A stretch of DNA of 64,000 nt from Spirosoma oryzae (GTDB taxonomy: Bacteria > Bacteroidota > Bacteroidia > Cytophagales > Spirosomataceae). The notes beneath the pieces are model-generated. The model was not told the origin of the DNA. It was given only the letters and a program-made list of their open reading frames with translations, and did no database searches. Shown in pieces: positions 19,247 through 20,531 of this stretch. Location: positions 1 to 64,000 of the forward strand of contig NZ_PVTE01000009.1 of NCBI RefSeq assembly GCF_003002825.1, given 5' to 3'. How positions within the stretch are numbered: position 1 is the first letter of the stretch; every line of letters begins with the position of its first letter. The position numbers and the translations under genes were made by a program.

Positions 19247-19432
19247 ATGAACGAGACAACAGCAAGCGGCATGTGGGATCAGCTAAAAGGAAAGATCAAA
19301 CAGGCGTATGCCGACCTGACCGACGATGATCTGACCTACGCAGAAGGTAAAGAAGACGAAATGTGGGGCCGCCTGAAAGAAAAGACGGGTAAGACCAAAG
19401 ACGAAATTCACAAGCAGGTAGCCGACATGTAG
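19247..19432 (+). CDS. CsbD family stress protein
   Basis: 61 residues, full-length CsbD: GMWDQLKGKIKQAYADLTDDDLTYAEGKEDEMWGRLKEKTGKTKDEI. A small hydrophilic helical protein; family members in other bacteria are induced by general stress. A terminator follows 24 bases later. Confidence 0.92.
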   Translation: MNETTASGMWDQLKGKIKQAYADLTDDDLTYAEGKEDEMWGRLKEKTGKTKDEIHKQVADM

Positions 19433-19685: not shown

Positions 19686-20531
19686 CTAACTCACCGAGCG
19701 ATACGGCGCGACACTGTCCATGGGCAGACGCTCTTCCAGCACGGCGTCAGCAGCCTGGTAGGCGATAGCGCCCACGCCAACTTTATTGATGACGTCGGCG
19801 ATGGAAAATGATAGGTGAATCCAGTTGGTATCGATGCTCGTGATAGCCGTCAGCACATAACCGATTGGGTAAACACCCCAGAATGTTACGACCATGATCC
19901 CCATTACTTTATAGGCCCAGCGTTCAGGGGCTTTTACGTGCCACTCGTTGCTACAGTCGCGCCAGATTTTGTAAAGAATGTAGACGACGATGACGTAGCC
20001 GACCGTTGAAATTGCCCCCCAGACCAGCTTGGGTACCACAAGAATTTCGTTGTCGGGCGTCAGTTGCTGTTCGCCGATGTAGCCCGTTACGATCATAAAT
20101 AAATCCGCCAGCAGCAGCGTATTGATCATGCTCCGGTACTTCCGGTAATGCACTTTCAGCATCGCCGTCATTTTCAGCAGCAACAGCGGGGTTGTAATCG
20201 CCCAGTCCATGTAACGCAGTTGTCCGATCGCGTTGTACGACGTACGAAGAAGTTGCGCCCGTCCTTCCTCGTTGTCGATCGTGGCCAGTTCGTGCAGCAT
20301 ATCCTTGTAATAACTCTGAATCAGAAAGTACGATATGCCCGCAACAGCCGCGATAATCGCCGTGTAGTCGCGGGAGATCCGGTGCTCGGGTGCTACGCTG
20401 CTCCGGCTCATCAGCGCAAAAATGACGTTGCCGACAAAGGCGTAAAACGCGACAAGCATGGAGAACCAGGTAATCATCGGCAGTATGCCTACGAGTCCGG
20501 CGGTTGGCAGAAATTTCTCGGCGAATTCCAT
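19686..20531 (-). CDS. Microbial rhodopsin, DTK motif, probable light-driven proton pump
   Basis: 281 residues, seven membrane helices. Helix C reads RYMDWAITTPLLLLK (residues 106-120): Asp109 is the counter-ion/acceptor, Thr113 the middle residue and Lys120 the donor position (D-T-K). Helix G has ADVINKVG with Asp246 and the retinal Schiff-base Lys250. Helix F has W218, Y221 and P222 of the retinal pocket. In helix E, WGAIST puts Gly172 at the position of bacteriorhodopsin Trp138, the glycine that opens the carotenoid-binding fenestration in xanthorhodopsin. In helix B the His of proteorhodopsin (His75) is Leu70. A donor-site Lys is known from Exiguobacterium sibiricum rhodopsin, a proton pump, so outward proton pumping is the best inference. 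No retinal-forming dioxygenase or crt gene is in the window. The function would be to add light energy to the proton gradient. Confidence 0.93.
   Translation of the reverse strand: MEFAEKFLPTAGLVGILPMITWFSMLVAFYAFVGNVIFALMSRSSVAPEHRISRDYTAIIAAVAGISYFLIQSYYKDMLHELATIDNEEGRAQLLRTSYNAIGQLRYMDWAITTPLLLLKMTAMLKVHYRKYRSMINTLLLADLFMIVTGYIGEQQLTPDNEILVVPKLVWGAISTVGYVIVVYILYKIWRDCSNEWHVKAPERWAYKVMGIMVVTFWGVYPIGYVLTAITSIDTNWIHLSFSIADVINKVGVGAIAYQAADAVLEERLPMDSVAPYRSVS

Follow-up and report, generated by a model that had tools for sequence, protein, structure and literature searches.

We regard P0001, a microbial rhodopsin of 281 amino acids and of the DTK type that is encoded at positions 19686..20531 (minus strand) of a 64,000-nucleotide stretch of Spirosoma oryzae DNA (hereafter the window), as probably a pump that binds retinal, uses light to move protons outward and has a lysine as its proton donor, where the pumping, its direction and the source of the retinal are what we infer. 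P0001 itself is a variant of a known rhodopsin type, and the graded loss of retinal among its kin is the more interesting part.

The window gene, its residues and its predicted fold

The open reading frame starts with an ATG at 20531, ends with a stop codon at 19686-19688 and is unbroken over its 281 codons. A profile search matched it to PF01036 (E 3e-33, 115.6 bits), and the predicted fold likewise corresponds to the seven-helix Bac_rhodopsin domain. An earlier reading of this DNA from its letters only (the sequence-only reading) had the coordinates right and left the strand unstated. P0001 is not a chance reading frame: besides its intact length and its canonical retinal residues, it has a 96% identical relative against which dN/dS is 0.036, and against a second close relative the ratio is 0.049, indicating strong purifying selection. 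The large genes flanking it encode a flavoprotein monooxygenase-like protein and a leucine-rich-repeat protein, and the product of a small adjoining ORF (window 19247-19432, plus strand) resembles, by eye, a CsbD-like stress protein.

Alignment with bacteriorhodopsin (BR), Exiguobacterium sibiricum rhodopsin (ESR), xanthorhodopsin (XR) and Gloeobacter rhodopsin (GR) placed R106, D109, W110, T113, K120 and G172 of P0001 at BR positions 82, 85, 86, 89, 96 and 138, and W218, Y221, P222, Y225, D246 and K250 at BR positions 182, 185, 186, 189, 212 and 216. The canonical residues are all present (R106, Y107, D109, W110, T113, W218, Y221, P222, D246 and K250), and the residue set of a proton pump is complete, with the carboxylate acceptor Asp109 (codon 20205..20207, on the minus strand like all codons given here; BR Asp85), Thr113 (20193..20195; BR Thr89) and the second counterion Asp246 (19794..19796; BR Asp212). 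The Schiff-base lysine, Lys250 (19782..19784; BR Lys216), is retained, unlike in the lysine-less type 1 opsins, and the proton-donor site holds Lys120 (20172..20174; BR Asp96, ESR Lys96). The sequence-only reading had assigned Asp109, Thr113 and Lys120 to BR 85, 89 and 96 and Gly172 (20016..20018; XR Gly156) to the site of BR Trp138, and the alignment bears out both assignments. It was also right that the histidine of proteorhodopsin helix B is absent, although it misplaced a leucine in that column, where the aligned residue is Ser67 (20331..20333) and the nearest leucine after it within the helix is Leu70. In proteorhodopsin this histidine pairs with the acceptor aspartate, and it occupies the column in 17 of the 22 rows outside the clade described below (14 DTE rows, ESR, XR and GR).

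Structure prediction agreed with the rhodopsin assignment. The AlphaFold2 model (21 sequences, mean pLDDT 88.5) matched solved rhodopsins, with psXR as the first match (Z 27.7, rmsd 2.3 over 237; VIA-align), followed by ESR (PDB 4hyj; Z 27.6, rmsd 1.6 over 220 residues; VIA-align), and with Z scores of 25.2, 25.4 and 26.4 for XR, GR and Kin4B8, respectively, and 24.9 for NM-R1. ESR is also the top PDB sequence match (E 2.8e-25; 32% identity over 228 columns) and is like P0001 in its DTK motif, its lysine donor and its fold, but the analogy is incomplete, since ESR carries the helix-B histidine that P0001 and its clade lack; it also has a serine, beside a gap, aligned to the 138 site where P0001 has Gly172. 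In the tree ESR groups with DTE rows at 94/69, outside the clade of P0001, a position that long branches make unsure.

Lysine-donor pumps are best known from ESR. In the cycle that we propose for P0001, light would isomerise the retinal bound to Lys250 and the Schiff-base proton would pass to Asp109, with Arg106 and Asp246 completing the counterion and the exit side; Lys120, presumed uncharged in the dark, would then pick up a proton from the cytoplasm and, as happens in ESR, reprotonate the Schiff base with it. For ESR the lysine donor is established in PMC8387761, which describes it as neutral in the dark, protonated from the cytoplasm first and only then reprotonating the Schiff base, and which reports that such a donor also works in a proteorhodopsin mutant. 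Since the helix-B histidine is missing from P0001, its Asp109 would be expected to be closer to the acceptor of BR than to that of proteorhodopsin.

Carotenoid site and supply of retinal

A 2025 paper (PMC12308411) gives Gly156 and Tyr207 of XR as the sequence criteria for a carotenoid site, and P0001 has both residues, as Gly172 and Tyr225 (19857..19859). The sequence-only reading took Gly172 as a distinguishing mark of an antenna rhodopsin, which was an overstatement: the 14 DTE and 4 NDQ rows that the alignment includes from the order have glycine at the 138 site without exception (ESR has Ser and BR has Trp), so it does not single P0001 out and we rejected it as diagnostic. Tyrosine at XR 207 is equally general among the aligned relatives. 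XR and GR have the same glycine and tyrosine as P0001, as does Kin4B8, whereas XR and GR carry DTE with the histidine against DTK with serine in P0001, at an identity of 24-26%.

It is doubtful, though not far-fetched, that P0001 is a dual-chromophore pump, in which a hydroxylated carotenoid over Gly172 would pass energy to the retinal as in XR and Kin4B8. Its glycine and tyrosine fit both published criteria, the model superposes well on zeaxanthin-bound Kin4B8 (Z 26.4) and on NM-R1 (Z 24.9), both of them solved structures, and the genome holds a lycopene cyclase-family gene (E 3e-61); against this, the two residues are the default among the aligned relatives, Na+ pumps included, and P0001 differs at the positions of XR Phe157, Met208 and Met211 (Ala173, Val226 and Ile230, respectively), which are further contacts of the carotenoid ring in XR. 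As far as the sequence goes, a carotenoid antenna on P0001 is possible and would be optional.

The S. oryzae genome (6.57 Mb in 75 contigs) holds two rhodopsins besides P0001. One is a DTT paralogue that is 47% identical to P0001 (L003:1441-2229; C5:80422-81201, plus strand, in the genome), with an exported DUF4142/DUF305 gene before it and a same-strand DUF2383 gene after it. The other is of the NDQ Na+-pump type, and an S. oryzae Na+ pump is tabulated in PMC7979833. About 150 bases behind this NDQ gene, on the same strand, lies a gene for a PF03055 carotenoid oxygenase (E 2.3e-120; the unit is at L124:5528-7945, on C7 of the genome). The genome check for blh and crt genes that the sequence-only reading had proposed came out both ways, as the TIGR03753 and PF15461 profiles found no blh in the genome, while the lycopene cyclase-family gene and the PF03055 oxygenase are present. 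Judged from its place beside a rhodopsin gene, the oxygenase may form retinal here in the role that blh has elsewhere, and the lineage of the window, which is without blh, probably uses retinal from it. The missing blh counts against the pump reading, as do kin that turned lysine-less; however, a strain without any known retinal gene is described as making retinal in PMC7734400, so the absence of a gene is weak evidence either way.

Two paralogues of the H+-pump type (DTK and DTT) next to one of the Na+-pump type invite the idea of a division of labour, in which P0001, coupled to a gene next to it, would serve as a sensor or transport in another direction. We consider this very improbable, as the large flanking genes include no transducer and DTK together with Asp246 is the signature of a pump.

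A Cytophagales clade with graded loss of the retinal lysine

Phylogeny, another check named in the sequence-only reading, places P0001 in a Cytophagales clade of 46 sequences that a branch with support 99/99 separates from the rest of the tree. Its members were found in Spirosoma, Fibrella and Hymenobacter and in a single lichen MAG that carries the label Sphingobacteriaceae. The tree comprises 68 sequences (the 46 clade members, 18 of the 43 other Cytophagales rows available and 4 references), and the search of the order sampled 390 genomes, such that further members may exist. BR joins the clade in the tree as drawn, a grouping that we set aside because the BR branch is very long. The residues at the BR sites R82, Y185 and D212 are kept in all 46 rows, and the clade opsin was recovered from 29 of 36 Spirosoma genomes. 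The DTK motif is found in 18 of the 46 rows, each of which also has serine in the histidine column, glycine at 138 and the lysine at 216. The combination of DTK, glycine and a missing histidine, which had been put forward as possibly undescribed, is thus present but not unique to P0001, being common to many members of the clade rather than an oddity of one protein; the DTK motif as such is named among proteorhodopsin motifs in PMC10154332. P0001 belongs to a subclade of 17 rows (support 98/99) made up of its near kin and of Fibrella, Hymenobacter and lichen-MAG rows, and the Schiff-base lysine is kept throughout it.

Several further rhodopsin and blh matches were recorded during the search. 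Rhodopsin pieces at contig ends of G205 were rejected as clade members, being DTE-type, and a fragment in G116 gave no significant match. A search of plasmids yielded 3 remote matches only. The Spirosoma genome G193 holds a further rhodopsin (L128:4853-5617) with a D-T-S motif and a proline at the BR212 site, which resembles a xenorhodopsin, as well as a DTE proteorhodopsin and no blh. In another genome, blh matched as two pieces in different frames near a DTE proteorhodopsin (G200:C1:2924958-2925748) and is possibly broken.

Outside Spirosoma, blh was found in all eight clade-bearing genomes searched (G112, G114, G277, G415, G445, G455, G457 and G471), which supports the use of retinal there, without proof for P0001. 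Of 10 Hymenobacter loci, 4 have blh as the next gene after the clade opsin, namely H. polaris (G415), where some 120 bases separate these same-strand genes, G277, G445 and G455, and these four sit in one five-row subclade. The 6 remaining Hymenobacter loci, the two Fibrella-genus loci and the lichen MAG have no blh at the clade gene, which weighs against the pump reading; it is likewise absent beside the gene in the near kin L033, L036 and L038. Adjacency to blh as an ancestral trait of the clade is thus unsupported beyond one Hymenobacter subclade (4/10 Hymenobacter loci and 0/3 other non-Spirosoma loci). Since every member outside Spirosoma keeps the lysine, and the host genomes examined there all carry blh, the clade probably began as a retinal pump.

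Within Spirosoma the picture is different: the Schiff-base lysine is absent from 13 of the 46 clade rows, all from this genus, with Ile, Leu, Gln, Val or Cys instead, and all 13 are also without the acceptor aspartate (Ala, Gly or Ser) and without the proline at BR186. The reverse coupling is not strict, as L088 and L092 (Hymenobacter terrestris and Hymenobacter sp. ISL-91; S-T-T motif, the acceptor Asp changed to Ser) have lost the aspartate and keep the lysine, and L060 has lost the proline and keeps the lysine. The tree requires at least three changes for the lysine, at least four for the aspartate and at least two for the proline; in three independent pairs the aspartate was lost with the lysine each time, too few for a test. 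Twelve of the 13 lysine-less genes are full length, the one in G213 being broken by a stop. Five lysine-bearing rows (L043, L048, L050, L051 and L052) are without the tryptophan at BR182, with Leu, Ala or Gly instead, and four of these five are in genomes with a DTE proteorhodopsin and blh.

A blh or PF03055 gene is present in the genome for 11 of 20 lysine-bearing rows versus 1 of 13 lysine-less rows (Fisher p 0.009, with two-paralogue genomes counted twice). We did not retain the idea that loss of retinal genes drove the loss of the lysine, as this count enters such genomes twice and a tree-aware comparison with three pairs is uninformative. Eight other Spirosoma genomes have a lysine-bearing clade opsin and no blh or PF03055 gene, and G196, likewise with neither gene, holds a DTK opsin beside a lysine-less one. 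Because lysine-bearing opsins persist in such genomes, an intact motif is no proof of retinal use.

These losses, together with the absence of blh from its own genome, raise the possibility that P0001 no longer pumps and stands at an early stage of the retinal-free drift of Spirosoma, with a light-independent job. We judge this unlikely, since the subclade of P0001 keeps the Schiff-base lysine across genera, the DUF4142/DUF305 neighbour typical of the drifting lineage is missing beside P0001, and the genome has a plausible retinal-forming enzyme of the PF03055 family; the proton pump is the reading of P0001 that we prefer.

The neighbour in question is a same-strand gene just 5' of the opsin, found in 29 of 42 loci, whose product is exported and, judged by eye, may carry a lipobox; the two such proteins scanned match DUF4142 and DUF305. 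It is missing in 13 loci, comprising P0001, L033, L036, L038, the two Fibrella-genus loci, the examined Hymenobacter loci and the lichen MAG. A similar DUF4142/DUF305-type gene is nevertheless present in all 36 Spirosoma genomes and stands alone in the 7 without a clade opsin, which weakens the case for an obligate partnership and means that the pairing is stable, not obligate.

Selection on the lysine-less opsins and a possible second role

The lysine-less genes as mere pseudogenes is a view that we rejected for 12 of the 13, given their full length and the dN/dS of 0.10-0.23 in seven lysine-less pairs (pairwise values, with dS > 1 in several; one pair used the open part of G213). By region, with helix and loop boundaries set by hand here and below, the ratio for these pairs is 0.04-0.13 in the extracellular part (six computable pairs) and 0.09-0.19 in the transmembrane part, whereas eight lysine-bearing pairs range from 0.04 to 0.34 with no consistent split between the two, and the highest ratio of all belongs to a lysine-bearing pair (L048/L050). 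In three close lysine-less pairs, 19 of 207 extracellular sites differ versus 83 of 480 transmembrane sites (p 0.007; three of five pairs were used, L053/L058 being dropped as broken and L049/L060 because L060 keeps the lysine), while in nine lysine-bearing pairs the counts are 75 of 621 versus 143 of 1441 (p 0.16). Over all pairs, the mean difference in the retinal pocket rises from 0.075 among 14 lysine-bearing Spirosoma rows whose pocket is intact (L043, L048, L050, L051, L052 and L060, in which it is damaged, are omitted) to 0.348 among 12 lysine-less rows (without the broken L058), partly by construction because the Lys, Asp and Pro positions count among the pocket sites; for the extracellular part it falls from 0.354 to 0.285 between the same two groups. 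The tested lysine-less pairs are under purifying selection, which is strongest on the extracellular face.

The lysine-less opsins were also considered as carotenoid-only proteins, an idea that we rejected. Gly172 is kept in 11 and Tyr225 in all of the 12 lysine-less rows (L058 again omitted), but position 173 has turned to Leu in 7 and position 176 in 10 of them, and these leucines may fill the carotenoid site. The lysine-intact set of this comparison consisted of 25 of the 33 lysine-bearing rows, omitting L043, L048, L050, L051, L052, L060, L088 and L092.

PMC4915679 describes type 1 opsins of haloarchaea (ORPs) and fungi that have no retinal lysine, and further examples are the freshwater FArhodopsins (PMC10308929) and the betaproteobacterial Rh-noK (Yamauchi 2019, as cited in PMC10308929). 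As in the haloarchaeal ORPs, Rh-noK and the FArhodopsins, the 13 Spirosoma relatives have lost the retinal lysine and retained the gene; they form a lineage separate from these groups and, unlike them, belong to a single genus that holds intact DTK, partly decayed lysine-bearing and lysine-less opsins. Among the literature matches listed, judged by title and the start of the abstract and with subscription journals thinly covered, none dealt with the clade or with the lysine-less Spirosoma opsins; PMC12227055 cites a 2024 study of a Hymenobacter nivis proteorhodopsin.

We tentatively suggest, as an idea that could well prove wrong, that the extracellular face of these opsins already had a second task, one that needs no retinal, in the days when they still pumped, and that this task outlived the chromophore in Spirosoma, where lysine and aspartate were shed together at least three times and the pocket decayed, while the outer loops (the BC loop, and GHQQLSFDNEI of the DE loop) were best kept. 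The lysine-less opsin might serve on the periplasmic face as a receptor or as a scaffold in the membrane, its partner perhaps being the exported DUF4142/DUF305 protein encoded just upstream. For the family, the histidine-less DTK clade offers new test proteins for the reprotonation of the Schiff base by a lysine and for the behaviour of an acceptor without its histidine partner. One genus, Spirosoma, holds intact-looking DTK opsins, lysine-bearing opsins with a damaged pocket and full-length lysine-less opsins, many of which have neighbouring genes in common, and with all of these stages within one genus the role of a retinal-free opsin becomes approachable via close relatives and knockouts in culturable species.
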